A DNA stretch of 64,000 bases from Mesorhizobium shangrilense (GTDB lineage Bacteria; Pseudomonadota; Alphaproteobacteria; Rhizobiales; Rhizobiaceae). The notes beneath the pieces are model-generated. The model was not told where the DNA came from. It saw only the letters and a list, made by a program, of their open reading frames with translations, and did not search any database. Each line of letters starts with the position of its first letter. Within the stretch, counting starts at the first letter, position 1. Below are positions 12,271-31,899 of the stretch, piece by piece. A program made the translations under genes and the position numbers. The stretch spans positions 1,612,001 through 1,676,000 of the forward strand of contig NZ_JBEWSZ010000001.1 in the NCBI RefSeq assembly GCF_040537815.1, in the 5' to 3' direction.

Positions 12271-12344
12271 TGGAGCGGGTAGCGGGAATCGAACCCGCAC
12301 CGGGAGCTTGGAAGGCTCTTGTGATACCATTTCACCATACCCGC
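12271..12344 (-). tRNA. tRNA-Gly (anticodon UCC)
   Basis: This 74-nt tRNA has acceptor stem GCGGGTA paired with TACCCGC, discriminator T and encoded CCA. The anticodon loop is CTTCCAA (UCC) and the T arm is GCGGGTTCGATTCCCGC. It closely resembles E. coli glyT, which lies upstream of tufB; here it is likewise upstream of tuf but 2.4 kb away. Confidence 0.97.
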
Positions 12345-12667: not shown

Positions 12668-13690
12668 ATGCCGATGACGCACAAGACGATGGAGGAGTTT
12701 GCCCGTTCCTGCGGCGTCTCCCGGCCAACGCTGTCAAAATATTTCGATGATCCGACCTCCATCAAGCCTGCCACGAGGCAACGGATCGAGGTTGCGCTGC
12801 GCTCGTCCGATTACCAGCCCAATCTGTTTGCCCGCAACCTGAACCGCAAGCGCACCCGCAGCATCGGCATCATGGTGCCGACGGTCGTCGACCCCTTCTA
12901 CTCGGAGATGGTCAGCCGCATCGAACTCAGGCTGCGCGACGAAGGCTACTGGCCGATCGTGATCTCCTCGCATGGCTCGCGCGAACTCGAAGTCGAGGCG
13001 ACGCGAACCATCCTGTCGCTCAAGGTTTCCGGTGCCCTGATCGCGCCACTCGGTGTGCGCTCGGATCACCGGACGTTGGAGAAGCTGACGCAGGCCATAC
13101 CGGTCGTCTATTTCGACACTTATCTCGAAGGCGGAACGCCGTTCGTCGGCAACAACAACAGCCAGAGCGTCTCGACCATCGTCGACTATCTCTGCCGCTC
13201 CGGCGACGCGCCGATCTATTTCGATATTCCGCACGTCAACCACAATTCCCCGGAGCGGCTGAACAGCTATATGAGCTCCATGAAGCGGCTCGGACAGGAG
13301 CCCATCGTCATCGGCAACACCGATGACTACACCTGGGACTTCGAGCGGATCGGCTACGAACAGATGGAGAAAATGCTCGGCAATGGCGGCCTGCCTGGCA
13401 AGACCATTCTGTGCAACAACGACCGTCTCGCTTTCGGCGTGATGGCGGCCGCCTACTCCCATGGCCTCAAGGTCGGGCGCAAAAGCGATTGTGACCTGCG
13501 CGTCGCGGCGCATGACGACCATCCGCTGAGCCGCTACACATGCCCGGCGCTGACCACCATGGCCCAGGATTTTGCCTCGATGGCCGGGCGCAGCGTGGAA
13601 ACGCTGCTGGCCTTGCTGAACGAGGATGGGGCGGCTGTCTCGCCGAAGGTCAATCTCGACTCGACACTGGTCATGCGTCAGTCGGCCTGA
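12668..13690 (+). CDS. LacI-family transcriptional regulator
   Basis: The 340-residue protein has an N-terminal helix-turn-helix (MEEFARSCGVSRPTLSKYFDDP, about residues 8-30) and the LacI hinge region YQPNLFARNLNRKRTRSIGIMVP. A periplasmic-binding-protein-like effector domain follows (DPFYSEMVSRIE, ILCNNDRLAFGVM, AAHDDHPLSRYTCPALTT). I start at ATG 12668 behind a GCGAGGGA region; an ATG two codons later is also possible. The gene ends inside the convergent esterase gene (13-bp overlap of coding ends). It most likely controls the flanking carbohydrate locus through the operator-like sequences at 15901 and 25595. Confidence 0.9.
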   Translation: MPMTHKTMEEFARSCGVSRPTLSKYFDDPTSIKPATRQRIEVALRSSDYQPNLFARNLNRKRTRSIGIMVPTVVDPFYSEMVSRIELRLRDEGYWPIVISSHGSRELEVEATRTILSLKVSGALIAPLGVRSDHRTLEKLTQAIPVVYFDTYLEGGTPFVGNNNSQSVSTIVDYLCRSGDAPIYFDIPHVNHNSPERLNSYMSSMKRLGQEPIVIGNTDDYTWDFERIGYEQMEKMLGNGGLPGKTILCNNDRLAFGVMAAAYSHGLKVGRKSDCDLRVAAHDDHPLSRYTCPALTTMAQDFASMAGRSVETLLALLNEDGAAVSPKVNLDSTLVMRQSA

Positions 13691-14652: not shown

Positions 14653-14668
14653 GGAAAGCCGCTCCTGC

Positions 14669-15817
14669 TTACGCACGCAGGCTTGCCGCCTCGTCTTCCT
14701 GGAGAAGCCGCGGCTGATCGACCGTTCCGTTGACGGCGACCGATTCGCGGCTTTCGCCCGAGGCAAGAATGGCCTCCATGATCTCCAGCACATGAAGGGC
14801 GAGATCGCCGGACGCGCGCGGCTTTCTACCAGTCTTCAGCGCGCGCGCCAGATCGGCAACGCCGAGCATCCGGTAATTGGCGCGATCGGGCGCGGCGTAG
14901 GGCCAGTTCAGAGCGCCGTAGAGCTCGCTCTCGCTCTGGAAATCAGCCCAGTCAGCGCCACGCTCCGACAGCGAGATCGTGCCGCCGAACGTATCGGGGT
15001 CAGGCAGTCTGAGCGAACCTTCCGTGCCATGAAGCTCGATCGGATGATTGGAGTGCCTGAAGACATCCCATGACGCGCCGAAGGTCACGGTGGCGCCGGA
15101 GCGGAATTCCAGCAGCGACAGGATATTCGTCGGCGTGCCAACCTTGAAGGTGGTGTCCTTGAACGGACCTTCGGCGGTGATCAGCCGCTCCTCCTGGCCG
15201 CGCGTCGCCATCGCCATGACGCGGGCCACCGGCCCAAGCAGGTTGACGAGCATCGTCAGATAGTAAGGGCCCATGTCGAAGACCGGCCCGCCGCCAGGCT
15301 GGTAATAGAATTGCGGATTGGGATGCCAATGTTCCATGCCGCGCCCCATCATGAAGGCGGTGCCGGTGACAGCCCGACCGATGGCGCCCTCCTCCATAAG
15401 CCGGCGCGCGCGCCGGCCGGCGGCACCAAGGAATGTGTCCGGGGCCGAACCCAGCAGCAGACCGCGCTCAGCGGCCTCGGCGACAAGGCGGCGTCCGTCG
15501 CTGGCTGATGTCGCCAGCGGCTTTTCGGTGAAAACGTGTTTTCCGGCGGAAAGCGCTGAAACCGAAACGTCGAAATGCGCCGACGGTATGGTGAGGTTGA
15601 GGACGAGGTCGATCTCGGGATCAGCCAGAAGCGCATCCACGCTGACGGCACGGATGCCATATTCGCTGGCGCGCAGGGCTGCCAGTTCCGTGGAAATGTC
15701 GGCGCATGCCCGCAATTCCACACCGGCGAAGAGCGCCGCATTGCGCAGATAGGTCATAGATATGTTGCCGCAGCCGATGACGCCGATGCCGAGCTTGTCC
15801 TTTGAATTCGCGGGCAT
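14669..15817 (-). CDS. Gfo/Idh/MocA-family dehydrogenase (first of three)
   Basis: The 382-residue protein has the N-terminal Rossmann motif GIGVIGCGNIS (about 10-20) and the family EKP signature in HVFTEKPLA, whose lysine is the usual catalytic base. A C-terminal substrate domain follows with GGPVFDMGPYYLTMLVNLLGPV. The family oxidises sugars or cyclitols with NAD(P). The start MPANSKDKLG (ATG 15815-15817) is preceded by GGGAGGT; a longer start adds six residues. It is the first gene of a two-gene unit with the esterase, divergent from the Tat-exported binding-protein gene. The shared gap carries the candidate LacI operator. Confidence 0.88.
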   Translation of the reverse strand: MPANSKDKLGIGVIGCGNISMTYLRNAALFAGVELRACADISTELAALRASEYGIRAVSVDALLADPEIDLVLNLTIPSAHFDVSVSALSAGKHVFTEKPLATSASDGRRLVAEAAERGLLLGSAPDTFLGAAGRRARRLMEEGAIGRAVTGTAFMMGRGMEHWHPNPQFYYQPGGGPVFDMGPYYLTMLVNLLGPVARVMAMATRGQEERLITAEGPFKDTTFKVGTPTNILSLLEFRSGATVTFGASWDVFRHSNHPIELHGTEGSLRLPDPDTFGGTISLSERGADWADFQSESELYGALNWPYAAPDRANYRMLGVADLARALKTGRKPRASGDLALHVLEIMEAILASGESRESVAVNGTVDQPRLLQEDEAASLRA

Positions 15818-15900
15818 TTCTATTCTACCTCCCAAACGTCCTGATGCCTTGTCCGAGCCCTTGCGCCAGCAGCGGGCCTTGTTCGAAAGCCGCTATACAG

Positions 15901-15936
15901 CATTTTAAATGTTGACGCGCGTAAAATTTTTATAGA
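15901..15936. promoter_or_regulatory. Candidate LacI-type operator, copy A
   Basis: Within the 175-bp divergent gap lies CATTTTAAAT followed by TTGACGCGCGTAAA at 15912-15925. The 14-mer is palindromic at six of seven paired positions around a central CG step, as is typical of LacI-family sites. The same block recurs upstream of the second ABC operon (25595-25633). The regulator at 12668 is the obvious candidate to bind it. Confidence 0.7.
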
Positions 15937-15992
15937 ACATACGAACATGCTGGCACACAATATCGGGAGGCTGCCAGCCCAAGGAGGAGAAA

Positions 15993-17339
15993 ATGACTGA
16001 CATGAAAAAAGGGCCGGTCTCCGGCTCGAAGCCTGCTGCTCACGTCACGATTGCTGACCGCAGGCAGTTTCTCATTGGAAGCGCCGGCCTCTTGGGCGCG
16101 GCAACACTTGGCATGAGCACAGGACTGGGAGTCCGCAAGGCTCGCGCCCAGTCACGCGCCGAAATCAGTTTTGCGAGCGCTGCCTTCTTCGGCAAGGAGA
16201 CCTTTGGCGATCTGATCAAGGCCTTTAACGAATCGCAGGATCGCATTCTCGTCAAGAACATCGAACTCCCGCCACCAAGCTCCTCCACCGAGGTGTATCA
16301 GGGCCTTGTCCAGCAGTTGGCCCGCCGCAACGGCACGCCCGACGTGTTCAGCCAGGACGTGATCTGGATCGCCGGCTTTGCCGCCGCCGGCTGGGCACTG
16401 CCGCTCGACGAATACTTCCCGGTCGACAAGCGCAGCGCTTACTTTGAGGGAACCCTCAACGCCTGCACCTATGGCGGCAAGCTCACCGCCCTGCCCTGGT
16501 TCATGGATTCGGGCATGTTCTATTACCGCAAGGACGTGCTGGAGAAGCATGGTGGCAAGGTGCCGGAGAACTGGGCGGACATGGCCACGATCGCCGCCGC
16601 CGCACAGAAGGCCGGCGATATCGATTTTGGCTATCTCTGGCAGGGCAAGCAGGCCGAGGTTCTGGTCTGCGACGCGGTCGAGATCATCACCTCCAACAAC
16701 GGTGCCATCCTCGCGCCCGACGGCAAGTCGTCGCTGATCAACCAGAAGGGCGCGGTGGAAGCGATCCAGTTCCTCCACGACACCATTGCCACGACCAAGA
16801 TCAGCCCGCAGGATGTGTTGTCCTGGGACGAAGAGCCGTCGCGCCAACCGTTCACCTCGGGCAAGGCGATGTTCATGCGCAACTGGTCCTACGTCTACCC
16901 GATCGCCCAGGATGCCAAGGCATCTCAGGTCGTCGACAAGGTTGGCGTCGCGCCGCTGCCTTCGTTCCCGGGTGGCAAGAGCTCGGCCTGCCTCGGCGGC
17001 TATCAGCTCGGCGTCAACGCCAACTCCAAGCATCGTGAAGCCGCGATCGAGTTGCTCACCTGGCTGTCGTCAAGCGAGACCCAGCATCGCATCGCTCTGA
17101 ACTTCGGCCTGGCGCCGACACGCCCCGCTCTGTTCCAGGACGAGAAGATCAAGACGGAACAGCCGTTCATGGCAAGCCTGGAAAAGGTCTTCACCGGCGC
17201 CACGGCGCGGCCGATCACGCCCGAATACGCCAAGGTGACGCTTGCCTTGCAGTCGGGTATCTCCAAGGCGCTGGTCTCTGGCAACGTCCAGGCCGAGATG
17301 GACGCGCTGGCCGCGCAGATCAACAAGATTGTCGGCTGA
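15993..17339 (+). CDS. CUT1-type sugar ABC transporter, Tat-exported binding protein
   Basis: This 448-residue extracellular solute-binding protein (family 1, MalE/UgpB-like) captures a sugar or related ligand in the periplasm. Its N-terminus carries a twin-arginine signal, ADRRQFLIGSAGLLGAA with the arginines at 23-24, ending in ARAQS near 52. Twin-arginine export suggests it folds before secretion. It is the first gene of a coupled ten-gene operon. A strong AAGGAGGAG ribosome-binding site precedes ATG 15993. Its leader and first codons reappear in decayed form upstream of the second transporter (25595-25735). Confidence 0.92.
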   Translation: MTDMKKGPVSGSKPAAHVTIADRRQFLIGSAGLLGAATLGMSTGLGVRKARAQSRAEISFASAAFFGKETFGDLIKAFNESQDRILVKNIELPPPSSSTEVYQGLVQQLARRNGTPDVFSQDVIWIAGFAAAGWALPLDEYFPVDKRSAYFEGTLNACTYGGKLTALPWFMDSGMFYYRKDVLEKHGGKVPENWADMATIAAAAQKAGDIDFGYLWQGKQAEVLVCDAVEIITSNNGAILAPDGKSSLINQKGAVEAIQFLHDTIATTKISPQDVLSWDEEPSRQPFTSGKAMFMRNWSYVYPIAQDAKASQVVDKVGVAPLPSFPGGKSSACLGGYQLGVNANSKHREAAIELLTWLSSSETQHRIALNFGLAPTRPALFQDEKIKTEQPFMASLEKVFTGATARPITPEYAKVTLALQSGISKALVSGNVQAEMDALAAQINKIVG

Positions 17340-17343
17340 ACCC

Positions 17344-19109: not shown

Positions 19110-19113
19110 AAGC

Positions 19114-19935: not shown

Positions 19936-19945
19936 GGACGAAACC

Positions 19946-21022
19946 ATGATCCGGAAACAGGAACGTCGTCTTCGTGTCGGTGTGCTCGGCTGCGGCCCGA
20001 TCGCGCAATTCGCCCATCTCGAATCTTGCGTGAAAGCAGGCAATGCCGATCTCTATGCGATCTGTGATGCCGCGCCCGACCTGCTGGCACGGATGGGCGC
20101 AACCTACGAACCGCAGAAGATGTATGGCGACTACGATGCCATGCTGGCCGACCCGGAACTGGAGGCGGTTATCGTCGCTACTTCCGACGCCTACCACGTC
20201 CCGATGTCGATCAAGGCGCTGGAAGCCGGCAAACACGTGCTGTGCGAAAAGCCGATCGGCGTCTCGGTCGAGGAAGGCGAGAAGCTGGCCGATGCGGTCA
20301 AGCGTTCCGGCAAGGTGCTGCAGGTCGGCCACATGAAGCGCTTCGATCCCGCGCTCGAGGCTGCCCGAGATTTCGTCCGCCACGAGATGGGCGAGATCCT
20401 GGCGCTGAAGGCCTGGTATTGCGACTCCACCCACCGCTACACCAACACCGACGCGATCCAGCCGCTGCCCGTCACCAGCAAGCTGGCGCGCAAGCCGGCC
20501 GGCAATCCCAAGGCCAATCTCCGGCAATACTTCATGTTGGCGCATGGGTCTCACCTTGTCGACACGGCACGCTTCCTGTGCGGCGAGATCGTTGCTGTCC
20601 GCGCCCGCCTCAATGAGCGGTTCGGCGCCTATTGCTGGTTCGTCGAAACGGAGTTCGCCAATGGGGCGCTCGGTCATCTCGATCTCACAGTGGCCGTGCG
20701 CATGGACTGGCACGAAGGTTTTCAGCTCTACGGCGAAAACGGCTCGGTGATCGCAAAAACCTTCAACCCCTGGTATTTCCGGGCAAGCGAAGTCGACATT
20801 TTTCACGAGAAGGATGCGACGTCGCGAAAGCCGCTTGGCGCCGACGGTCATTTCTTCAGGCGGCAGATCGAAGGCCTCGCCGCCACCGTGCTTGACGGCG
20901 CGCCACTGCGTGGTGCCGACGTCGAGGACGGGCTCGCCTCGATCCGAGCCATGGTGGCGATCGCGCGCTCGGTCGAGACCGGGCAGCGCGTCGAGATCGC
21001 CTCCGTGACGGGAGCGGTCTGA
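19946..21022 (+). CDS. Gfo/Idh/MocA-family dehydrogenase (second of three)
   Basis: The 358-residue dehydrogenase begins with LRVGVLGCGPIAQFAHL (Rossmann fold) and has the family motif LCEKPIG near residue 100. The C-terminal domain carries HGSHLVDTARFLCGEI, where the histidines normally contact the substrate hydroxyls. The gene overlaps the next by one base (TGATG). It lies between two TIM-barrel genes, a neighbourhood that in known pathways oxidises a sugar at C3 or a cyclitol before isomerisation or elimination. Confidence 0.9.
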   Translation: MIRKQERRLRVGVLGCGPIAQFAHLESCVKAGNADLYAICDAAPDLLARMGATYEPQKMYGDYDAMLADPELEAVIVATSDAYHVPMSIKALEAGKHVLCEKPIGVSVEEGEKLADAVKRSGKVLQVGHMKRFDPALEAARDFVRHEMGEILALKAWYCDSTHRYTNTDAIQPLPVTSKLARKPAGNPKANLRQYFMLAHGSHLVDTARFLCGEIVAVRARLNERFGAYCWFVETEFANGALGHLDLTVAVRMDWHEGFQLYGENGSVIAKTFNPWYFRASEVDIFHEKDATSRKPLGADGHFFRRQIEGLAATVLDGAPLRGADVEDGLASIRAMVAIARSVETGQRVEIASVTGAV

Positions 21023-21840
21023 TGCAGATCGGGGTGTTCGCCAAGACGTTTTCGGGAAACGAACCGGCCGGCGTGCTGGCAGCGGTCCGCGACGCCGGGT
21101 TTGCCGTCACCCAGTTCAACCTTGCCTGTGCCGGCCTACCGTCCATGCCGAATGTCGTTCCGGACAACGCCATCAGCTCGATTGCCGCCGCTTCGGCTGG
21201 TTCAGGCGTCTCTCTGGTGGCGCTTTCGGGCACCTACAACATGGCGCATCCGGACAAGGCGGTGCGCGACGATGGCTTGCGCCGGCTTGCCGTGATCATC
21301 GAGGCGGCAGCAGCACTTTCCATTCCTCTCGTCACGCTTTGCACGGGGACGCGCAATGCCGATGACCAGTGGGCTCAGCATCCCGATAATGGAGATGCTT
21401 CGGCTTGGGCCGATATGGCTGCTGAAATGGCAAAGGCGCTGGAGTTCGCCGAGCGCCACGGCGTCGATCTCGGCATCGAGCCGGAGCAAGCCAACATCGT
21501 CACGTCAGCCGACGATGCGATGCGTCTCATCACCGAGATGAGCTCGAAGCGGCTGCGCGTCGTTCTCGATCCGGCGAACCTGTTCGAACAGGCGAACGCC
21601 CAGCAGGCACGCGTCATCGTCGCCGAAGCAATCGAACGCACGGCCGGCCACGTCGCCATGGCCCATGCCAAGGACCGTTTCGTCGACGGCCGCTTTGCCA
21701 CCGCTGGCCAGGGCGTTGTCGACTTTGCGGATTTCGTCTCCCGACTCAAGGCAACGGGTTTCGACGGGCCGCTGGTCACGCACGGGCTCTCGGCTGCCGA
21801 AGCGCCCGGCGTGGCCCGCTTCCTCAAGGGGCTGCTCTGA
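21022..21840 (+). CDS. Sugar phosphate isomerase/epimerase-type TIM barrel (second of two)
   Basis: This 272-residue TIM-barrel protein opens MQIGVFAKTFSGNEPAGVL and has VTLCTGTRN, DLGIEPEQANIV and LRVVLDPANLF, the strand ends that hold metal-binding acidic residues in the xylose-isomerase-like superfamily. It is clearly diverged from the other barrel encoded 1.1 kb upstream. One-base stop/start overlaps link it to both neighbours. The exact reaction is unknown. Confidence 0.85.
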   Translation: MQIGVFAKTFSGNEPAGVLAAVRDAGFAVTQFNLACAGLPSMPNVVPDNAISSIAAASAGSGVSLVALSGTYNMAHPDKAVRDDGLRRLAVIIEAAAALSIPLVTLCTGTRNADDQWAQHPDNGDASAWADMAAEMAKALEFAERHGVDLGIEPEQANIVTSADDAMRLITEMSSKRLRVVLDPANLFEQANAQQARVIVAEAIERTAGHVAMAHAKDRFVDGRFATAGQGVVDFADFVSRLKATGFDGPLVTHGLSAAEAPGVARFLKGLL

Positions 21841-22673
21841 TGGCAGCCGTGGCCACCCTTCTCCGCGACGGCGCCGCGCTCTCGATGTCGGACAATGGCG
21901 ACGGGCCTGCGATCGTCTTCCAGCACGGCCTGGGCGGCGGCGAGGCGCAGGTCGCCCAGTCATTTCCCGCCGACGCGGGCTTCCGGCGCATCACGCTGGA
22001 ATGCCGTGGGCACGGCGCGTCCACTCTTGGCAAAGGCCGCCCGTTTTCCTTCGACATGTTCGCTAACGACGTTCTTGCCGCCGCCGATGAGGCGGGGCTG
22101 CGGCGCTTCGTTGCCGGCGGCATCTCCATGGGCGCGGCGATTGCCATGCGCCTTGCCTGCCGCCATCCGGATCGCGTGACCGGCCTCGTGCTCGTAAGGC
22201 CGGCCTGGACCTTCGACCGCGCGCCGGCGAATATGCTGCCGATCGCGGAGGTCGCAAGCCTCATCCTGGATCATGGACCTGAAAGGGCAAAAGCGATCTT
22301 CGTGGAGTCGCAAACGGCGGCCCGGTTCAAGCGTGAGGCGCCCGACAATCTAGCCTCGCTGCTGGGCTATTTCGACCGGCCCGATGCCGCGCAGTTCGCA
22401 GAGGTCCTGGCGGATATCGCTGCCGATGGACCAAGCGTTTCCGTTGACGATGCCGCCGCTGTCGCCATGCCGGTATTGGTCATCGGCAATGCCCTGGATG
22501 AGGTACATCCACTGTCGGCCGCCAACACGCTGGCCACCGCCATTCCCGGTGCGGTGGTCGCGGAGGTGTTTCCGAAGTCGCTCGACGGCAGCCGGCATTT
22601 TTCTGAACTCCACGCGCAAATCACCGCCTTCCTGCACGCTCACCTCAACATTCGGAGCCTTCTTCCGTCATGA
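21840..22673 (+). CDS. Alpha/beta hydrolase
   Basis: The 277-residue protein has the alpha/beta-hydrolase oxyanion region VFQHGLGG (about 27-33), the nucleophile elbow GISMG with Ser96, an acid in LVIGNALDEVHP and the histidine in GSRHFSEL. It resembles lactonase/esterase members such as 3-oxoadipate enol-lactonase-like enzymes. A lactonase would fit a dehydrogenase-based sugar pathway in which a sugar lactone is formed, but that is inference. The start ATG overlaps the preceding stop by one base. Confidence 0.83.
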   Translation: MAAVATLLRDGAALSMSDNGDGPAIVFQHGLGGGEAQVAQSFPADAGFRRITLECRGHGASTLGKGRPFSFDMFANDVLAAADEAGLRRFVAGGISMGAAIAMRLACRHPDRVTGLVLVRPAWTFDRAPANMLPIAEVASLILDHGPERAKAIFVESQTAARFKREAPDNLASLLGYFDRPDAAQFAEVLADIAADGPSVSVDDAAAVAMPVLVIGNALDEVHPLSAANTLATAIPGAVVAEVFPKSLDGSRHFSELHAQITAFLHAHLNIRSLLPS

Positions 22674-23392
22674 CGACCAAATCCCTGTCCGGCCGCGCCG
22701 CCATCGCCGCCTTGCCGCGCAACCGGCTGCTCGGCGAGTTTTCGCTTTGGTCAGCCGATCTCGCCAATATGGAACGCGACCTCAATCGCATCGATCCCTT
22801 CGTCGATCTGCACCACATCGACGTGGCCGACGCCCGCTTCACCCCCGGCTTCCTGTTCTTTCCGGACCTGGTGGCACGCATCGCCAAGCTGACAGCGAGG
22901 CCGATCCATGTCCATCTGATGGTCGAAGCGGAAATCGTCGAGGAGCAGACGCGCCAGTTCATCGAGGCCGGCGCCGACCTTGTCAGCGTCCATGCCGAGA
23001 ACGCGGAAGCGGGCCTGCGCGCCGTGCGGCTGGCGCATGAGCTCGGCGCCGAGGCCGGCGTCGTGCTCAGGCTGGAAACACCAGTTGCCGCGATAACGCC
23101 CTTCCTGCCGGAAGTGGCCTTCGTGACGCTTCTTGGCACCTCCATCGGCGTCAAGGGCCAGAGCCTTTCGGAACAGGCCTGCCCTCGCCTGATCGAGGCA
23201 CGCGCCCTGATGAGAAAGGCCGGCCGCGAGGCTGACATCATCCTGGCGGCGGATGGTGGCATCCGCCATGAGACCGTGCCGCGTCTGCGCGCCGCCGGCG
23301 CCGAGACCGTGGTGCTGGGCTCACTGGCATTCGGCGACCCCGACCTTGCCCAGCGCATGGCATGGCTGCATGGGCTGAAGGTCGCCGCCTGA
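22670..23392 (+). CDS. Ribulose-phosphate 3-epimerase-family protein (AlsE-like)
   Basis: This 240-residue TIM barrel shows the RPE pattern: HHIDVADARFTPG (His49 and Asp51), VHLMVE with His82 and the phosphate-binding ADGGIR near the C-terminus. The family interconverts ketose 5- or 6-phosphates at C3. It is somewhat longer and more diverged than housekeeping Rpe. Being directly followed by a ROK kinase recalls the alsE-alsK pair for D-allose, so an allulose-6-phosphate-type epimerase is a reasonable guess. The ATG overlaps the previous stop by four bases. Confidence 0.85.
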   Translation: MTTKSLSGRAAIAALPRNRLLGEFSLWSADLANMERDLNRIDPFVDLHHIDVADARFTPGFLFFPDLVARIAKLTARPIHVHLMVEAEIVEEQTRQFIEAGADLVSVHAENAEAGLRAVRLAHELGAEAGVVLRLETPVAAITPFLPEVAFVTLLGTSIGVKGQSLSEQACPRLIEARALMRKAGREADIILAADGGIRHETVPRLRAAGAETVVLGSLAFGDPDLAQRMAWLHGLKVAA

Positions 23393-24426
23393 TGGCCAAC
23401 AAGGTCGCCCTCGCCTTCGATCTTGGCGGAACCGAGCTGCGCGGCGCGCTGGTCGAGAGCGGCGGCCACGTCGTAGCCCATGCCTCGGCGCCAACGATGG
23501 CCGTGGCAGGATCGGAGGCGGTGATCGGCCAGATCATAACGCTGGCGGCCGATATTCTGGCACAGCGGCCGCAGGCGGAGGTGGTCGGCATTGGCGTCGG
23601 CGCGCCGGGTCCGCTCGATCCCAAGGCCGGAATTGTCATTGCCCCGCCGACGCTGGCGGGCTGGCACGATGTGCCGCTGATCGACATTCTCGGCAGCCAT
23701 TTCGGCCTGCCGGTGCGCCTCGAAAACGATGCCAATGCGGCAGCGCTTGGCGAATGGCGCTTCGGCGCCGGCCGGGGCACCGGATCGATGGTGTTCGTCA
23801 CCGTCTCCACCGGCATCGGTGGCGGCGTCGTTGCCGAGGGTCACATCTATCACGGACGGCGCGGGCTGGCCGCCGAGATCGGCCACATGACGATTACCGG
23901 TGAAGGCGAGCGCTGCTTTTGCGGCGCCATAGGCTGCTTCGAGGCGGTTGCCTCGGGAACGGCACTGGGGCGGCGCGCCACGGCACTGACGGCGCCAGGC
24001 GACGGCTCGCTGCTCAGGCGCCTGTCAGCCAATGGCGACGTTTCGGCCAAGCATGTCGTCGATGCCGCGCGTGCCGGCGACGTGCGCGCGCTTGAATTGC
24101 TGGAGGCGGAAGCGAAGTGGCTGGGCATTGGTTTCACCAATCTGCTGCATCTCTATTCGCCGGATCTGATCGTGATGGGCGGCGGCCTCGCCAACGGTTT
24201 CGACCTTCTGGCTCCGATGATCCGGACGACAGTAGGACAGCGGGCAATGCCTGCCTATCGTGACGTACCGATCGTGCGGGCCGAGCTCGGAGCTCGCGCC
24301 GGGCTGATCGGCGCGGCCAGCCTGATCCTCTGGAAGGGTGAAGCGGGTGCGCCGCTGGCGATGACGCATGATGAGAACAACAACGGCACGCCCGAACGTG
24401 CCGACAGGGAGGCAAGCCATGGCTGA
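23392..24426 (+). CDS. ROK-family sugar kinase
   Basis: The 344-residue protein has the phosphate-binding [11 protein letters not shown] (10-20), the catalytic region [11 protein letters not shown] with Asp113, EIGHMTI, and the zinc motif CFCGAIGC (175-182). These place it among ROK sugar kinases rather than ROK repressors, since there is no N-terminal helix-turn-helix. It would phosphorylate the imported or processed hexose. The start overlaps the epimerase stop by one base and its end overlaps the ATPase gene by eight bases. Confidence 0.9.
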
Positions 24427-25510
24427 GCTCAAGCTGCGCGGCGTGCGCAAATCCTACGGGTCCGTGGAAGTCATCAAGGGCATAGACCTGGACGTCAAGG
24501 ACCGGGAATTCGTGGTGTTCGTCGGGCCGTCAGGCTGCGGCAAGTCCACGCTGTTGCGCATGATCGCTGGTCTCGAGAAAATTCCGCATGGCGACCTTCT
24601 CATCGATGGCGTCCGCTCCAACGACATCGACCCGTCTGAACGCGGGCTGGCCATGGTGTTTCAGTCCTACGCGCTCTATCCGCACATGACGGTCGCCGAC
24701 AATATGGGCTTTGCGCTGAAGATCGCCGGTATTGCCGCCAGCGAGAAGGAACGCAAGGTGAAGGAGGCGGCCGAAGTGCTGCAGCTTTCGCATCTTCTCG
24801 AACGCCGGCCGAAGGAGCTTTCTGGCGGCCAGCGCCAGCGCGTCGCCATCGGCCGCGCCATCGTGCGCAACCCAAAAGTGTTCCTGTTCGACGAGCCGCT
24901 GTCGAACCTCGATGCGGCGCTACGTGTCAGCATGCGGCTCGAACTGATGCGGCTGCACGAGCAACTCGCCGCGACGATGATCTATGTCACCCATGACCAG
25001 ACCGAAGCGATGACCATGGCCGACAAGATCGTGGTGCTGAACGGCGGACACATCGAGCAGGTCGGCTCGCCGCTCGACCTCTACAACAGGCCGGCGAACA
25101 TTTTTGTCGCCGGCTTCATCGGCTCACCGAAGATGAATCTGCTGAAGCTGAAGGTTGCATCGACGGGTCCCGGTGGCGTCACAGTGACGTTGCCGGACGG
25201 CCAGGCGCTGACGGTTCCGGTCGAGGCCGGCGCAATCAGATCTGGCGACGAGGTCCTGCTTGGCATGCGCCCCGAACATCTCAGCGTCTCTGCCGAAGGA
25301 CAGTTTCGCGGACAGGCCATGCTGGCCGAGCGGCTGGGCAGCCTGACCATCCTGCATGTCGAGATCGCGCCAGCACTGACACTGGTGGTTCAGGCCGAGG
25401 GCGGCGACACGACGCCTTTGCACAAGCCGATCAGCCTCGAAATCTCTCCCGCTGCCTGCCATCTGTTTCGAACGGATGGCCCCGCATTGGCGCCGCTCCG
25501 CCCGAACTGA
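24419..25510 (+). CDS. CUT1-type ABC transporter ATPase (UgpC/MsmK-like)
   Basis: The 363-residue ATPase has Walker [10 protein letters not shown], the Q loop, signature LSGGQRQR, Walker B VFLFDEP and the switch histidine in THDQTEA. A C-terminal OB-type regulatory domain of about 120 residues (with GMRPEHLSV) is typical of MalK/UgpC. It completes the transporter whose binding protein and permeases lie 5-8 kb upstream in the same operon. The start [11 protein letters not shown] (ATG 24419) lies inside the ROK gene; an upstream ATG would add 17 unlikely residues. Confidence 0.93.
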
Positions 25511-25594
25511 GCAGCACGCTCACAATCCGGCTCTCCGAACCAATGACTCCAACCGACGTGCTGCGTTGCAGCACAATCAAAAACCACTGCACAC

Positions 25595-25633
25595 CATTTT
25601 AAATCTTGACGCGTGTTAAATTTTTCTCGAACA
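25595..25633. promoter_or_regulatory. Candidate LacI-type operator, copy B
   Basis: CATTTTAAAT followed by TTGACGCGTGTTAAA at 25606-25620 repeats the block seen at 15901-15936 with a handful of substitutions. It sits upstream of the FrcBCA-like operon, implying that both transporters belong to one regulon. The palindrome is slightly poorer than in copy A. Confidence 0.68.
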
Positions 25634-25678
25634 TGCGGAAATGCTGGCAAGGCACTGGCCAGCGCTCTGGGAGGAGAA

Positions 25679-25852
25679 ATGCCTGACATCAACAGGCCCG
25701 AAATGGGCTCGAAGCCGACAAATCATATGACTGTCGCTGCCCTGACGGCCGCCTGTCATCAATGGGTGGATTCGCACCGCAACGTCCGGCGCAGGCCTTT
25801 CCTTCGCCTGAGACCGATCAACGAGACACAATCAACAACGGGAGGAAGAACT
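25679..25852 (+). pseudogene. Vestigial 5' end copied from the first binding-protein gene
   Basis: An ATG at 25679 with a strong GGGAGGAG site begins an open stretch reading MPDINRPEMGSKPTNHMTVAA. This aligns with the first residues of the Tat-exported protein at 15993 (MTDMKKGPVSGSKPAAHVTIA). The similarity covers the upstream leader as well and fades after about 20 codons. The frame stays open into the binding-protein gene at 25853, so a 58-residue extension is possible in principle. A normal signal peptide and its own ribosome-binding site at 25853 argue that this piece is a relic leader. Confidence 0.7.
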
Positions 25853-26842
25853 ATGCGCTTGTTCAATTGTCTGGCGGTGAGCGCCAGTCTGTTTGCGATG
25901 ATGGCTTCAGGGCCGGCATTCTCCGAAGACGCCGCGAAAGTCGCGGCCATCGTCAAGGGCCTCGACAACCCATTCTTCCAGACCATGCAGAAGGGCATCG
26001 AAGAGCAGGCAAAGGCCAACGGCGTCAATGTCACCGTCCAGGCCGCCGCCAATATGGGCGACGCCACTGGACAGGCCGACCGCCTGACCGCCATGGCCAT
26101 GCAGGATTTCGATTGCTACCTGGTCAACCCGATCAGCGTCTCCAACCTCGTCCAGGCCCTTGTGCCGGTCGCGCAGAAGAAGAAGCCGATCGTCAACATC
26201 GACAGCACCATCGACGCCGAGCAGGCCAAGGCTGCCGGCTTCGCCGTCTCGACCTATATCGGCACCGACAATGTCGCCGCCGGTGCACTGGCCGGCGAAG
26301 AAATGCTGAAGCTGGTGCCGAAGGGCTCCAAGGTCGCTATCATTGCGGGCATCGTCGGCGATGTCGGCAGCAACGCTCGCATCAAGGGCTTCAAGCAGGC
26401 CGTTGAAGGCAAGCTCGAAGTCGTGGTGATGGTCAGCGCCGATTGGGATCGCGAGAAGGCGCTGACCGCCGCCACCGACATCCTCGCCGCGCATCCGGAC
26501 CTCACTGGGTTCTTCGCCGCCAACGACATCATGGCGCTCGGCGTCGAACGCGCCGTGCGGACCTCTGGCAAGGAAGTGAAGGTGATCGGCCTCGACGGCA
26601 TCGTCGATGCGCTGAAATCGATTGCCGCCGGCGAACTCTCCGCCACCGTCGCACAGTACCCCTATGTCGTCGGCGCCATGGGCGTCGAGGCCTGCGCCGT
26701 GGCCGCCAAGGGCAAGGAACTGCCCGCCAACGTGCCGGCACCGGTGCTGCTGATCAACAAGGACAATGCCGAGGCCTCGCTGAAGAACTTCCCGCGCCCC
26801 GGTGGCGACTATCCTGATCCCTTCCGCGAGATGTTGAAGTGA
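25853..26842 (+). CDS. Sugar ABC transporter periplasmic binding protein (RbsB/FrcB-like)
   Basis: The 329-residue protein has a Sec signal peptide (MRLFNCLAVSASLFAMMASGPAFS, cleaved near 24) and a periplasmic-binding-protein type 1 fold like RbsB or FrcB. Segments such as VKGLDNPFFQTMQKGIEEQAKAN, GTDNVAAGALAGEEM and GFFAANDIMALGVERAV are characteristic. A GGGAGGAAG site precedes ATG 25853. The gene heads a B-C-A operon and its permease overlaps by GTGA. Likely ligand is a pentose, hexose or polyol. Confidence 0.9.
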   Translation: MRLFNCLAVSASLFAMMASGPAFSEDAAKVAAIVKGLDNPFFQTMQKGIEEQAKANGVNVTVQAAANMGDATGQADRLTAMAMQDFDCYLVNPISVSNLVQALVPVAQKKKPIVNIDSTIDAEQAKAAGFAVSTYIGTDNVAAGALAGEEMLKLVPKGSKVAIIAGIVGDVGSNARIKGFKQAVEGKLEVVVMVSADWDREKALTAATDILAAHPDLTGFFAANDIMALGVERAVRTSGKEVKVIGLDGIVDALKSIAAGELSATVAQYPYVVGAMGVEACAVAAKGKELPANVPAPVLLINKDNAEASLKNFPRPGGDYPDPFREMLK

Positions 26843-27840
26843 GCACTCCTTCAGACAACGCGCCCGCCGCCCATTCGGCGGGCGCAGAGGAGAGTCGTCC
26901 CTCCCTTGCGGCTCTCCTCCTCGATCCTTCCTTCTGGGCCGACTGGGCGTCCGTCGTCGGCCTGGTCGGCCTCGTCATCGTGTTCGGCATCGCCCAGCCG
27001 GTCTTTCTCAGCGTCGCCAATCTGCAGGCGCTGTTGCTGGCGGCGGCGATCCTGGTCGTGCTGTCGATCGGCCAGACTTTTGTGGTGGCGACATCCGGCA
27101 TAGATCTTTCCATGGCCGCTTCCGTCATGCTGGGCGCCGTTATCCTTGGCCTCGTCAACGCCGCGGGCTGGGGTATCCTCCTCGCCTGCGTGGCTGCGGT
27201 TCTCGCCACAAGTGCGGTCGGGTTTCTCAACGGCGTCATCATCACCGCCGGGAAAATACCCGACTTCGTGGTGACGCTCGGCACGCTTTCGGCGATCACC
27301 GGGCTCGGCCTCATCCTGTCGGGCGGTGAGCCAGCCATGGTCGGCTCGACCTTCCTGCTCAAGCTGGCGTCCGGTTCCTTCGGTCCGTTCGGCTATCCGG
27401 TCTGGGTGGCTATCGCCGCCGTCATCGTGGCGCATATCGCGCTCTATCACACCCGCTTTGGCGTCCATTTGCTGGCGACCGGCGGCCAGACCGAAAGTGC
27501 GGGCGCGCTTGGCATCCGCACCAACCGGGTCAAGATCGCCGCCTACACGATTTCAGGCCTTTGCGCCGGCATCGCGGCAATTCTCCTGGTGGCGCGCATC
27601 GGTTCGGCCGAGCCGCTGATCAACACCAGCCTGCTGCTGAATTCGGTGGCCGCCGTCGTGCTCGGTGGTGTCAGCCTGTTCGGCGGCCGCGCCAGCATTC
27701 TCGGGCCTGCCATCGGCGCGCTGATGCTTACGGCACTGGTCAACGGGCTGACTCTGCTCAGTGTGTCCGCCTTCTATCAACCGCTTGCCGTGGGCGCCAT
27801 CGTGGTGCTGGCGGCGCTGATCATGCGGTATCAGAAATGA
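26839..27840 (+). CDS. Sugar ABC transporter permease (RbsC/FrcC-like)
   Basis: This 333-residue membrane protein has about ten hydrophobic segments and family motifs such as VVATSGIDLSMAASVML and AVVLGGVSLFGGRASILGPAIGAL, the latter being the coupling and pore region of RbsC-type permeases. It starts at a GTG overlapping the preceding stop (GTGA), so translation is coupled. A hydrophilic N-terminal extension of about 25 residues precedes the first helix. Confidence 0.9.
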   Translation: MSTPSDNAPAAHSAGAEESRPSLAALLLDPSFWADWASVVGLVGLVIVFGIAQPVFLSVANLQALLLAAAILVVLSIGQTFVVATSGIDLSMAASVMLGAVILGLVNAAGWGILLACVAAVLATSAVGFLNGVIITAGKIPDFVVTLGTLSAITGLGLILSGGEPAMVGSTFLLKLASGSFGPFGYPVWVAIAAVIVAHIALYHTRFGVHLLATGGQTESAGALGIRTNRVKIAAYTISGLCAGIAAILLVARIGSAEPLINTSLLLNSVAAVVLGGVSLFGGRASILGPAIGALMLTALVNGLTLLSVSAFYQPLAVGAIVVLAALIMRYQK

Positions 27841-28601
27841 GCGCCGTCAATCACATCCCGTCCTCGGAGGCGATCATCGCCTGTGAAGGACTGAGCAAGC
27901 ATTTCGGTGGCATACGCGCCTTCACCGACGTCGCCTTCCAGGCCCGTCGCGGCGAAGTCACCGCCGTCATTGGCGACAATGGTGCGGGCAAATCCTCCCT
28001 GATACGCAGCCTGGTCGGCGTGCATCAGCCGGACGCCGGCAATCTGTTCTTCGACGGCCGAGCGCGACCTTTCACCAATCCCGACGAGGCACGCAAGGCC
28101 GGTATCGAAACCGTGCATCAGAACCTGGCGCTGATCGACGAACTGACGGTGGCGCAGAACCTGTTCCTCAACCGCGAGATCGTACGCCGGATCGGCCCCT
28201 TCGCTTTCCTCGATCGCAAGGCGATGAAACGCGAGGCCCGCTCCATGCTGTCGCGCCTTTCGATCAACGTGCCGTCGATCAACCAGCGTGTGCGGCGCCT
28301 GTCGGGCGGCCAGCGGCAGGCGATATCAATCTGCCGTGCCGTCGGTTCCGGCGCCAAGCTGGTTGTGATGGACGAGCCGACGGCGGCACTTGGCGTGCAG
28401 GAAACGGCCAATGTCGAGGCGCTGATCCGGCGCCTGCGCGAACAGTCCGTCAGCGTCATCCTGGTCAGCCACAATTTCGATCAGGTCCGCCGCCTCTCGG
28501 ACCAGATCTGGGTGATGCGGGCAGGACGCATGGCAGCGACGGTGCGCGCATCCGAAACAACCGGCAACGAACTCGTTGCGCTCGTCACCGGCGCGGCTTG
28601 A
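27837..28601 (+). CDS. Sugar ABC transporter ATPase, single-domain (FrcA-like)
   Basis: The 254-residue ATPase has Walker A GDNGAGKSS, signature RLSGGQRQA, Walker B LVVMDEP and the switch histidine in LVSHNFDQV. Most RbsA/XylG-type proteins have two fused ABC domains; this one has only one, as in rhizobial FrcA of the fructose system. Gene order binding protein-permease-ATPase also matches frcBCA. The start overlaps the permease stop (ATGA). Confidence 0.9.
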   Translation: MSAVNHIPSSEAIIACEGLSKHFGGIRAFTDVAFQARRGEVTAVIGDNGAGKSSLIRSLVGVHQPDAGNLFFDGRARPFTNPDEARKAGIETVHQNLALIDELTVAQNLFLNREIVRRIGPFAFLDRKAMKREARSMLSRLSINVPSINQRVRRLSGGQRQAISICRAVGSGAKLVVMDEPTAALGVQETANVEALIRRLREQSVSVILVSHNFDQVRRLSDQIWVMRAGRMAATVRASETTGNELVALVTGAA

Positions 28602-28624
28602 CTGCCGCGCCTAACGACATCTTT

Positions 28625-28657
28625 ACCAAATGAACGTTGGTTTTGACCAACCGAACG
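28625..28657. promoter_or_regulatory. Candidate operator before the third dehydrogenase
   Basis: Two direct copies of ACCAAnYGAACG start at 28625 and 28646, spaced 21 bp (about two helical turns). They overlap an inverted repeat TTGGT-N4-ACCAA at 28637-28650. The site lies in the 79-bp gap between the FrcA-like gene and the third Gfo/Idh/MocA gene. The binding protein is unknown. Confidence 0.5.
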
Positions 28658-28680
28658 ATTGAGTTGAAAGGGAGCATGCC

Positions 28681-29766
28681 GTGGCGGTGATCCGTGTCGG
28701 ACTTGTAGGTCTTGGAGAGGTCGCGCAGTCGATCCATCTGCCGGTGCTGAGCGATCAGCGCGACCGCTGGGTCATCGCTGGCGTCCATGACGTCTCGCCA
28801 AGCCTCGTGGCGCTATGCACATCCGAATACGCGACCGCAAAGGCCTATGAATCCGCGGAAGCCCTGATCCGTTCGCCGGACATTGATGCCGTGTTCGTGC
28901 TGTCCTCCGACGACACGCACAGCCGCTTCGTGCGTGCGGCCATGGAGGCCAACAAGCATATCCTGCTGGAAAAACCCGCCTGCCTGACGGTGCGCGAGAT
29001 CGACGAGTTGCTGGCACTGACACCTAACTACGGAAAGACCCTCTTTGTCGGCTACATGCGCCGCTACGCGCCGGCCTATCTGGCGGCCAGGGATGAACTG
29101 CCTGATCATGCCGACATCACCCATGTCCGCATCTTCGACCTGATCTCGGAAGGCCGGCATTTCCTCAAGAAGAGCCAGAATGTCCTCTATCCCAAAGACA
29201 TCGACGCGGACTTGCTTTCGCGTGGCGCAAAGGAGCGCGATGCGCTGATCCGCGAGGTGGTGGGCGTCGATGCGCCGGCCGACCTGATGCGCGCCTATCG
29301 CGGTCTGACCGCTCTGTCCTCGCACCATATTTCGGCGATGCGTGGGTTGATCGGAGAGCCCGTGGGCGTGGTCGCGGCACACCGCACCAATGGCGGCGCC
29401 AACACCTCAGTCACCTTCGACTACGGCCATTTCGCCTGCTGCTATGATGCGGTCGTCGACGATATCGGCCTGTTCGACGCCATGATCGAAGTGCGCTCGA
29501 ACACCAGGCGTGTGCGCATCATCTATGACACGCCCTATATCCGCAGCCTGCCAACCCGGCTGGAGGTGACCGATGCCGGTCCGCTTGGCCCGGTGACCAG
29601 GACTTTCGGTCCGCTCTACGGCGACGCCTTCTCCAACGAGTTGGAGATTTTCCACCGCCACATCACCGAAGGCACCAAGCCGCTGACCGACCTGGCCGAT
29701 TCACGCCGCGACCTGGCGCTGATGGCCGAGATCATCGATCGGATGAAGAAGAGCGGCCGAGGCTGA
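28681..29766 (+). CDS. Gfo/Idh/MocA-family dehydrogenase (third of three)
   Basis: The 361-residue protein starts at GTG 28681 (an ATG five bases upstream is out of frame and stops at once). It has the Rossmann opening VIRVGLVGLGEVAQSIHLPVL and the motif LLEKPACL near residue 100. The C-terminal domain contains LTALSSHHISAMRGLIGEP. It is only distantly related to the two other dehydrogenases in this locus. The intervening operator-like repeats suggest it can be controlled separately from the transporter upstream. Substrate unknown. Confidence 0.88.
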   Translation: MAVIRVGLVGLGEVAQSIHLPVLSDQRDRWVIAGVHDVSPSLVALCTSEYATAKAYESAEALIRSPDIDAVFVLSSDDTHSRFVRAAMEANKHILLEKPACLTVREIDELLALTPNYGKTLFVGYMRRYAPAYLAARDELPDHADITHVRIFDLISEGRHFLKKSQNVLYPKDIDADLLSRGAKERDALIREVVGVDAPADLMRAYRGLTALSSHHISAMRGLIGEPVGVVAAHRTNGGANTSVTFDYGHFACCYDAVVDDIGLFDAMIEVRSNTRRVRIIYDTPYIRSLPTRLEVTDAGPLGPVTRTFGPLYGDAFSNELEIFHRHITEGTKPLTDLADSRRDLALMAEIIDRMKKSGRG

Positions 29767-29775
29767 GAGCGCTCG

Positions 29776-30051
29776 CTACTTCCCGCAATGGTGGTCGTTG
29801 ATCTTGTTCAACGCATTCGCGTCGGGCCCGACACGATGGTATGAGCAGGCTCCGGCAGCCGTCGTGACCAATTGCTGGTCGTAATAACGCGGGCCACCGA
29901 ACAGGAAGTCGATGACGTCCCTTTCGGCGGGAACATAGTGTTCGGGTTGATCCTGACGCTCGTAATGCCGGTCTCCAGCAGCCGCCGACCCGCAAATGCC
30001 GCAGCCTATTCCGACAGCGAGGGCGAAGATCGCAGAACATTTCGTCGTCAT
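29776..30051 (-). CDS. Small secreted protein, unknown function
   Basis: The 91-residue product has a signal-like N-terminus (MTTKCSAIFALAVGIGCGICGSAAAG) and a polar mature part of about 65 residues containing DVIDFLFGGPRYYDQQ and ACSYHRVGPDANALN, with two cysteines in the mature chain. I do not recognise the family. The start ATG 30049-30051 follows a GAGGG sequence; a longer frame adds 30 residues before the signal. It is convergent with the dehydrogenase gene, ending 9 bp away. Confidence 0.6.
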   Translation of the reverse strand: MTTKCSAIFALAVGIGCGICGSAAAGDRHYERQDQPEHYVPAERDVIDFLFGGPRYYDQQLVTTAAGACSYHRVGPDANALNKINDHHCGK

Positions 30052-30185
30052 CGGCAAATACCCTCTTGGCCATTCGGACTCACACCATACATCCAAAATC
30101 GCCAGTCGAAAAAAGGTTCCCGAGACGGTCTCGTCAAGCACCAGCCTGATCGGTGGTGGTTGTCCTTAGCCTCGCCCGTGTGCAG

Positions 30186-31772
30186 TCAGTAGCCAAGCGC
30201 CATGCCGTCCTTGCGCGGATCCGAAGCCCCGGTCAGCGTACCCTTCTCCCAGTCGATCAGAACCAGTTGGCCGCCACCCAACGGTTCGTACGGCGCCGTG
30301 ACCTTGTGGCCGCGTCGGCGCAGGCCTTCGATGGCTTCAGCAGAGACGCTGCGTTCGGCGCTGACCATGTCGTCATTGTAGAACACGCGCGGCGCGTCCA
30401 TCGCTTCCTGGGGGTCCATGCCGAAATCGAACATGTTTGTCAGCAGATGGACATGGCCGAAGGGCTGGTAGCCACCGCCCATCACCCCGAATGGCATCAG
30501 CGCGCGACCACTCCTGGTGACCATGCCTGGCATGATGGTGTGCATCGGCCGCTTGCCGGGAGCGATGCAGTTCGGATGCCTGGGATCAAGGCGAAAACTC
30601 GTCCCGCGATTCTGCAAGACGATTCCAGTTTTTGGGCCGACAATGCCGCTGCCAAATGAAAAATAGGTCGAGTTGATGAAGCTGACCGCGTTGCGGTCGC
30701 GATCGACCACCGAAATGTAAACCGTGTCGCTGCCGGGCAACGCAACACGCGGCAGACGCGTCATGGCACGATCGCGGTCGATCTCGGCGCGCAGCCGGTC
30801 CGCATAGTCACGCGACAAAAGTTCTTTCACGGGGACCGCCACATGGTCCTGATCGCCAACCAGATTGTCGCGATCGCGATAGGCAAGCCGTCCCGCCTCG
30901 ATCTCCAGGTGGAGCCGCTCGGCGCCGTTGGGATCGAGCCCGCCCGGCAAGAAACCGGACAGCACGTTCAGCATCAACAGCGCGGTAAGGCCCTGATTGT
31001 TCGGCGGCATCTGATGGATGTCGTAGCCGTGGTAGGAGGTGCTGACGGGCGTCGTATAGTCGCCCCTTGTCGACGCGAAATCGTCGAGCGTGTGCAGGCC
31101 ACCCAGTGCCTGCAACCTCGAGACCATATCATCGGCGGTCTCGCCTTCATAGAAACCAGCGCGACCGTCCCTGGCGATCTTGCGCAGCGTCGCGGCGAGT
31201 TCCGGCTGGCGATGCACATCACCCGCCACCGGCGCCCTGCCACCCGGCAGGAAGATGCGTGCGGCGTGCTCGTCGGCCGAAAGATCCGTCTCGGGATCCG
31301 CCCAGTCGAAGGCGACACGGTCGTGCACGACATAGCCGTGCTCGGCATAGTGGATGGCGGGAGCCAGCGCATCGGCGATGCCTTTGCGGCCATGATCTTC
31401 CAACAGGCGGCACCAGGCGTCCACGGCGCCGGGTACCGTCACCGAATGCGGTCCGCCAGCCGGAATGCGATCGAAGCCTTTTTCGAGATACCAGTCGACA
31501 TTCGCGGCCGCGGGAGCGCGGCCCGAGCCGTTGAATGCCAGCACATCGCCCCCTCCATTCGGGCAATAGAGAACGAAGCAGTCGCCGCCGATACCGGTTG
31601 ACTGCGGCTCCACGACGGCCTGCACGGCTGCCGCCGTGATCGCGGCATCCATCGCATTGCCGCCGGCGCGCAGCATGTCCACGGCGGCAAGCGTAGCGAG
31701 CGGATGCGATGTCGCGGCCATGCCTTCGGTGGCGCGGACTGGAGATCGGCCGGGAAACTGTAAGTCACGCAT
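30186..31772 (-). CDS. Gamma-glutamyltransferase-family protein (cytoplasmic type)
   Basis: The 528-residue Ntn-hydrolase homologue has the GGT start region ATEGMAATSHPLATLAAVDMLRAGGNA and GIGGDCFVLY. The presumed self-cleavage and nucleophile threonine is Thr350 in GSDTVYISVVDRDRNAVSF. C-terminal MPFGVMGGGYQPFGHVHLLTN is also family-typical. No signal peptide is visible, unlike classic periplasmic GGT, so it likely acts on imported gamma-glutamyl compounds or as an acylase of the wider family. It lies 127 bp downstream of a polyamine/opine-type ABC operon in the same orientation. Confidence 0.88.
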   Translation of the reverse strand: MRDLQFPGRSPVRATEGMAATSHPLATLAAVDMLRAGGNAMDAAITAAAVQAVVEPQSTGIGGDCFVLYCPNGGGDVLAFNGSGRAPAAANVDWYLEKGFDRIPAGGPHSVTVPGAVDAWCRLLEDHGRKGIADALAPAIHYAEHGYVVHDRVAFDWADPETDLSADEHAARIFLPGGRAPVAGDVHRQPELAATLRKIARDGRAGFYEGETADDMVSRLQALGGLHTLDDFASTRGDYTTPVSTSYHGYDIHQMPPNNQGLTALLMLNVLSGFLPGGLDPNGAERLHLEIEAGRLAYRDRDNLVGDQDHVAVPVKELLSRDYADRLRAEIDRDRAMTRLPRVALPGSDTVYISVVDRDRNAVSFINSTYFSFGSGIVGPKTGIVLQNRGTSFRLDPRHPNCIAPGKRPMHTIMPGMVTRSGRALMPFGVMGGGYQPFGHVHLLTNMFDFGMDPQEAMDAPRVFYNDDMVSAERSVSAEAIEGLRRRGHKVTAPYEPLGGGQLVLIDWEKGTLTGASDPRKDGMALGY

Positions 31773-31899
31773 CGAGGGTCAGTACCTTGTCATAAGAAGA
31801 AGCTATAAAGTTTGGGCGTAAGCTAAAGCTTTCGCATCGAGATTCGTCTTGCATGAGCTTGGTTTCGAAAAACCCGTTTTTTATTTTTCCGGACATGCG

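Follow-up and report, generated by a model that had tools for sequence, protein, structure and literature searches.

The window, the whole 64,000-nucleotide stretch of DNA that was analysed, contains two sugar importer operons that are preceded by similar leaders (Table 1). The first leader lies between a divergent gene for a Gfo/Idh oxidoreductase (gfo) and the gene for a CUT1-type binding protein (SBP1). The second precedes frcBCA, which holds the CUT2 importer domain set (Pfam Peripla_BP_4, BPD_transp_2 and ABC_tran) in one operon. The label Frc, for fructose, was given by the initial annotation of this DNA and is putative as to the sugar. A regulator gene of the same region encodes both a LacI HTH and a sugar-binding-like domain (Pfam LacI and Peripla_BP_3), which places its product in the LacI family. 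Rfam searches of 12000-32000 and of the whole window give four tRNAs and otherwise sub-threshold matches, with no known leader family among them.

Table 1. Genes and leader elements of the two importer loci (window coordinates).
Feature	Position	Strand	Basis
LacI-family regulator, presumed binder of both operators	12668..13690	+	Pfam LacI and Peripla_BP_3; in 57/57 frcB genomes
Gfo/Idh oxidoreductase, divergent from parent leader	14669..15817	-	adjoins leader in 66/77 fetched leader places
Parent operator TTGACGCGCGTAAA, overlaps -35 box	15912..15925	+	identical in 66/66 parent leaders analysed, themselves found by similarity
Parent -10 GAACAT, 17 bases past TTGACG	15935..15940	+	sequence; function inferred
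Parent hairpin GCTGGCA...TGCCAGC	15949..15978	+	sequence, fold
SD GGAGGAG and ATG of SBP1	15983..15995	+	sequence
SBP1, CUT1-type binding protein, twin-arginine-like start	15993..17339	+	Pfam SBP_bac_1; Tat by eye
Copied leader preceding frcBCA	25577..25733	+	alignment; 57/57 frcB genomes
Copied operator TTGACGCGTGTTAA, overlaps -35 box; relatives mostly TTGACGCGTGTCAA	25606..25619	+	
Copied -10 GAACAT, 17 bases past TTGACG	25629..25634	+	function inferred
5' hairpin, stem GCTGGC/GCCAGC plus T-G pair, compensatory changes	25642..25664	+	covariation
Ghost start CTCT-GGGAGGAG-AA-ATGCCTG, nearly frozen	25665..25685	+	0.62 changes/site vs 6.25
GGGAGGAG, complement of AbcR anti-SD loop	25669-25676	+	
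Open frame of the relic (58 codons), in phase with frcB in this window	25679..25852	+	frame not conserved
frcB's own SD GGGAGGA	25840..25846	+	sequence
frcB, CUT2-type binding protein	25853..26842	+	Pfam Peripla_BP_4; start common to relatives
frcC, permease	26839..27840	+	Pfam BPD_transp_2
frcA, ATPase, start codon provisional	27843..28601	+	Pfam ABC_tran

The initial annotation proposed that the leader in front of frcBCA was copied from that of SBP1, and pairwise alignment, the check that it named, bears this out. Local alignment of 15860-16140 with 25560-25860 scores 88, far above 1000 dinucleotide shuffles (mean 18.8, maximum 29) and above the next-best tile on either strand of the 64 kb (28, with tiles overlapping the copy excluded). 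The block first delimited, 25595-25735, is homologous, but the true match starts about 18 bases earlier and joins 15883-16076 of the parent to 25577-25733 of the copy. The shared elements include sequence upstream of the operator, the operator itself, the -35 and -10 boxes with their 17-base spacing, ATGCTGGCA, the hairpin, the Shine-Dalgarno sequence (SD), the ATG and the first codons; in some relatives the likeness to the old gene can be followed by eye to about codon 40. A plain DNA search of the same genome with the SBP1 leader returns the query itself and three chance matches of 19-20 bases and misses the frc copy, while a leader profile built with both leaders (profile R1, made from 61 of 103 distinct leaders) has exactly two matches, the parent and the copy. 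The transporter behind the copy is unrelated to that of the parent, as had been stated (SBP_bac_1/SBP_bac_8 versus Peripla_BP_4, BPD_transp_2 and ABC_tran), and homologous leaders thus precede non-homologous genes, the configuration by which promoter reuse is recognized. An frcB ortholog (E <= 1e-130) occurs in 57 of 146 Mesorhizobium genomes, and the copied leader stands before it in all 57.

Both promoters carry an even palindrome with a central CG (TTGACGCGCGTAAA and TTGACGCGTGTYAA). The LacI protein is found at 70% identity or more in 106 of the 146 genomes (hand count) and in every frcB genome, an association with a hypergeometric p of 2.6e-11 when kinship is ignored, and the recognition-helix stretch GVSRPTLSKYFDDP is identical across the four orthologs compared. 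In other genera that possess this LacI, the region beside gfo has a site matching at 13 of 14 letters in three genomes (G343, G272 and G456; 0 of 100 shuffles as good). A weaker site, GTTGACGCACG(G/C)TAAC in G418, G196, G214 and G188 and a variant in G464, matches at 11 of 14 letters and is marginal, since 5-12 of 100 shuffles do as well. Upstream of lacI in the window there is a weak operator-like site only (5 of 100 shuffles as good), and a whole-genome operator search allowing one mismatch gives 15 strand matches at 10 places, the two leaders included, versus 4 for the reversed control. The earlier suggestion that one LacI-type regulator governs both importers is made plausible by this co-occurrence and by the operator-like sites near LacI in other genera; judged from sequence, capture of the leader most likely put two unrelated importers under this one protein. 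Elsewhere (G415, L238), a perfect palindrome TTTACGCGCGTAAA (1567-1580 of that locus) separates a lacI of 42% identity from the gene that follows it on that strand.

The part of the copy that once began a gene is nearly invariant. Rates were obtained as parsimony change counts on the frcB tree, in which frcB has 6.25 changes per site at four-fold positions (116 sites) and 0.48 at the second positions of codons. The relic CTCTGGGAGGAGnAATGCCTG, block 25665-25685, has 0.62 changes per site, with 0.0 in the SD and 0.14 in ATGCCTG, and the rate rises directly behind it to 7.0 (25686-25698) and 9.1 (25699-25726). In 100000 random draws of 21 four-fold sites, no set had a rate as low as that of the block. 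The SD GGGAGGAG is present in all 57 frcB leaders and the ATG in 52, which are also the leaders with both intact at plain spacing or one base less; a single clade of five genomes has ACG instead, and in that clade the next ATG is open and in frame with frcB. The initial annotation regarded this start as a mere relic, a description that does not fit an SD, an ATG and four further bases that are nearly frozen. Because they have stayed so across the genus though the protein they once began is gone, the leftover probably still works in the mRNA, and this ghost start is probably functional rather than dead.

The 5' hairpin pairs in 99.2% of cells among the copies, compared with 32-71% in slid controls, and has 35 double-change cells where shuffles give 11.3 (0 of 500 as high). 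Two of five covariation measures are not above shuffles, namely pairs changed on both sides (3 versus 2.0) and pair types (10 versus 9.4). Because single-sequence folding is no better than shuffles (z = -0.35, -0.35 and -0.67), support for the hairpin comes from covariation. For a second small hairpin, CTCT/GGAG, every cell pairs, but there is hardly any variation, which leaves it without support either way. Pairing of ATGCCTG with a downstream CAGGCAT was considered as well and rejected: it is possible in 19 of 57 leaders (0.9 expected) and absent from 38 although ATGCCTG is invariant, and no conserved structure results. In 50 of 66 parent leaders the loop region of the hairpin (15958-15971 in the window) holds another SD-like word, GGGAGG(C/T).

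The frozen SD also matches a known class of small RNA. The anti-SD motif aSD1 of S. meliloti AbcR1/2 is CUCCUCCC (PMC8844928), and GGGAGGAG is the exact complement of this motif. The word occurs once in the 64 kb, counting both strands. RNAs of the corresponding ar15 family are found in 144 of 144 genomes searched (143 above the cut-off), which conflicts with the statement in PMC5596092 that AbcR1/2 had not been found in M. huakuii 7653R. The window itself contains no ar15 match; its genome has two ar15 loci with CUCCUCCCA (L204 and L205), and UCCUCCCA occurs in 28 of the 32 ar15 loci inspected, a set made up mostly (30) of the best-scoring loci. The best-scoring ar15 copy of this genome (L255, G000:C2:814475) is without the CUCCUCCC loop of those two loci. 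In at least 16 genomes an ar15 RNA lies on the same contig as the LacI gene and 8-29 kb from it (e.g. G102:C1:2352641, G011:C1:7127588 and G156:C65:27047).

These matches raise the alternative that the ghost start is kept solely as a pairing site for AbcR/ar15 RNAs and is not used by ribosomes. Persistence of GGGAGGAG in 57 of 57 leaders, even where ACG replaces ATG, would follow directly from it, as would the exact complementarity to aSD1 and the occurrence of the word as the sole copy on either strand of the 64 kb. The bases AATGCCTG that come behind are equally conserved, yet they fall outside the pairing region, and the site does not coincide with the frcB start but precedes it by 174 bases. 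An unstructured duplex energy calculation on 76 start regions ranks the ghost site 2nd and 17th, which does not set it apart. We consider exclusive use by the small RNA unlikely, although it is the best of the competing accounts. Complementarity to AbcR is to be expected of any strong SD, and the invariant CCTG after the ATG is accounted for by neither AbcR pairing nor a conserved peptide.

Leaders that have lost their importer serve as natural controls. Eight genomes have an frc-type leader without frcBCA (G132, G177, G060, G025, G117, G125, G158 and G030), and among these GGGAGGAG is intact in three and SD plus ATG in two (Fisher p = 6.8e-6 and 1.3e-4); several of the losses resemble deletion junctions. 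Within the region about 400 to 100 bases before frcB, G010 (L089) has tandem frc leaders; operator and SD are decayed in the distal leader, and the proximal one is intact. Such loss of sequence in leaders that are redundant or no longer serve frcBCA argues against a dead remnant that erodes slowly by chance while only operator and promoter matter. That account would agree with the unconserved peptide and frame and with the loss of the ATG in one clade, but the rates already contradict it (0.0 and 0.14, where four-fold sites have 6.25 and the bases directly behind have 7 to 9), and it is very improbable.

Conservation does not extend to a protein product. Past codon 3 the relic peptide accumulates 7 to 9 changes per site, and all three frames relative to frcB are represented. 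Among the 57 relic frames, 33 stop within -40 to +25 of the frcB start, 14 read from ATG straight into frcB in the same frame, five would do the same from ACG, four stop earlier and one overlaps out of frame; stop positions are approximate in G178 and G009, where the frcB start is uncertain. Up to 40 bases before frcB, 48 of 51 leaders have no stop in the relic frame; shuffles expect 29.6, and for frame +1 the number is 31 of 51. This count ignores kinship and covers 51 of the 57 leaders, the five with ACG and one with a missing base having been left out. It had been remarked that the relic start is still open in frame with the new gene. This is true of the window, where 58 codons without a stop lead from 25679 to 25853, and from ATG it is true of only 14 of the 57 genomes, with five more from ACG. 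The remark is incidental, because neither peptide nor frame is conserved and the two are in frame in only 19 of 57. That the relic ATG is the true start of an N-terminally extended FrcB is hardly credible: the frame is open in the window and the list of open reading frames has only longer starts, but the relic is out of frame in 38 of 57 relatives, and frcB comes with an SD of its own and a start common to them.

The copy seems to predate the genus. When loci are taken by species name, all 47 Mesorhizobium loci with an upstream region, M. ephedrae included, hold GGGAGGAG and a loose operator pattern, and 42 of the same 47 have GGGAGGAG-ATGCC; this set overlaps largely with the genomes of the 57-genome set. 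The loci examined in this way are 51 of 61 FrcB loci, after one fragment without upstream DNA and nine distant proteins were left out. None of the four FrcB relatives next in line (Rhizobium sp. CG5, 72%; Aureimonas, 79%; Kaistia, 78%; Geminicoccus, 69%) has the copied leader, and their frcB begins behind an RBS of its own, as judged by reading. Upstream of frcB in Rhizobium sp. CG5 (L318, about 440-460) there is a near-operator with one extra base, TTTACGCGCGGTAAA. The comparison of relatives that the initial annotation called for thus finds the relic in all 57 Mesorhizobium frcB genomes and in M. ephedrae, with the four distant FrcB relatives lacking it.

Among 297 genomes of the family, frcB at E <= 1e-100 is found only in the genome of the window and in M. 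ephedrae 6GN-30 (G343, identified through identical frcB coordinates although filed under another genus), which has both leaders. One is beside lacI, gfo and SBP1, and the other precedes frcB on a different contig. The frc leader of M. ephedrae keeps GGGAGGAG, followed by GTG, and its hairpin is not the same by eye. Its relic frame reads VASDREGPPAGPSFPPHDGISVHRP, resembling the start of SBP1, with a stop about 78 bases before frcB (by reading). This surviving SBP1-like start is one reason to dismiss convergence of two independent leaders on one repressor as scarcely conceivable: a single LacI that presumably binds both would select for similar operators, but spacer words, SD context and first codons are alike too, and the alignment outside the operator already contradicts it.

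The distance between frcB and lacI is 8-17 kb in 31 of the 57 genomes, and in the other 26 frcB lies elsewhere, 2.5-4.8 Mb off on the same contig in seven and on a different contig in 19; three of the latter with lacI of the adjacent type (G001, G130 and G151) may be contig breaks. Since the copy is seemingly older than the genus and the distance of frcBCA from lacI varies, their adjacency in the window says little about the origin of the copy. Nothing indicates that the duplication proposed by the initial annotation was a local one: frcBCA is separate from lacI in 26 of the 57 genomes, and in M. ephedrae the two are on different contigs. Copies read ATGCC where SBP1 leaders read ATGAC, and these copy-specific letters disfavor recent gene conversion.

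The parent leader offers a related case in which the gene has disappeared from behind the start. A neighboring gfo was found at 66 of 77 fetched leader places, of which 21 have SBP1 and 45 do not; 8 of 29 SBP1 genomes had no parent-leader match and were thus left out of the fetched set. In the 45 of 66 genomes analysed with an SBP1-less leader beside gfo (among L127-L203, e.g. L174, L141 and L191), the leader faces the 3' end of a convergent gene and then a gene starting near MSLGTK in 35, and it directly precedes the MSLGTK-type gene in nine. The convergent gene encodes a DeoR-family regulator in the one case tested (L174), and in G044 a sugar-isomerase-like cluster gene lies behind the leader. 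In 34 alignable SBP1-less leaders the SD has 0.14 changes and the ATG 0, versus 4.4 at gfo four-fold sites, and the four bases past the ATG are freer (about 3.5 changes). The other 11 of the 45 were set aside by hand since their gene start is absent, moved or not alignable, an exclusion that favors conservation in the remaining 34; all 45 together give about 1.9 for the SD, 2.0 for the ATG and 5.6 for four-fold sites. The operator of these leaders may be kept for gfo, which leaves the conservation of SD and ATG unexplained.

The evidence is best accounted for by a single ancient capture of the leader, under a shared LacI, with a ghost start that still works in the frc mRNA; we give this reading as a whole a probability of roughly 0.7. 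At least about 150 bases of the SBP1 operon start are copied before frcBCA in the 57 Mesorhizobium frcB genomes and in M. ephedrae, and the capture would have occurred once, before these lineages split. The LacI protein encoded at 12668 would repress both promoters, in which case one regulator switches both importers. The frc mRNA is predicted to start just before the hairpin, with the ghost SD and ATG near its 5' end. Most likely, this SD and ATG would load ribosomes on a short upstream ORF that reaches or enters the frcB start, and the same GGGAGGAG would also pair with AbcR-type anti-SD small RNAs. If the ghost start is both a ribosome site and an AbcR site, then transcriptional and post-transcriptional control were transplanted together. 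On comparative grounds, it is best read as a 5'-UTR element that may serve as a short-ORF start, an AbcR pairing site or both. Counting against this reading, four of 57 relic frames end well before frcB and ATG is ACG in five genomes.

A broader generalization is tentative and on balance doubtful: ghost starts could be a functional class of leader in which SD and start are kept without a conserved product, as a module that loads ribosomes or that binds or titrates AbcR. The class would cover both the copied frc case and the left-behind case of the 34 SBP1-less parent leaders that retain the start. If it exists, one copying event can carry LacI control along with small-RNA or translational control.

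Copied non-coding DNA is reportedly able to rewire regulation, as discussed under the titles 'Promoter reuse in prokaryotes' and 'Transfer of noncoding DNA drives regulatory rewiring in bacteria'. The present locus resembles promoter reuse in having homologous promoter regions before unrelated genes and differs from it in that the copy includes a gene start, is fixed across a genus and conserves SD and ATG without the gene. Bacterial 5' UTRs can hold translated leader ORFs (uORFs). Here too SD and start are conserved and the frame is usually open to near the start of the next gene, whereas neither peptide nor stop position is conserved and the element derives from the start of another gene. 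Local regulons of the LacI family can have an even palindrome on the promoter. The central-CG palindrome over the -35 box and the regulator gene in the cluster agree with this pattern; what differs is that the second target came in through the copying of an entire leader. Targets of AbcR1/AbcR2 (alpha-r15) in Sinorhizobium meliloti likewise include ABC-transporter binding-protein mRNAs with an SD complementary to the aSD1 loop CUCCUCCC (PMC8844928); at the present locus the complementary SD belongs to a ghost start that precedes frcB by 174 bases and would be a candidate target. A search of the open-licence PMC literature found no description of the frc/SBP1 leader.

The kind of event is already known; the novelty lies in a start that is frozen although its gene is gone. 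The locus provides a replicated case of how two unrelated importers can be joined under one regulator by copying of a whole leader and not by evolution of a new site, and it raises the prospect that selection can preserve a start codon in its own right after the gene is lost. The ghost start offers a direct test of how much a bacterium gains when ribosomes load, or small RNAs pair, within a 5' UTR. It also has a practical consequence, since annotation that takes the first in-frame ATG would add a false extension of 58 residues to FrcB. The lists of open reading frames for the window give GTG at 25613 and the in-frame ATG at 25679, both of which imply such a false N-terminal extension.
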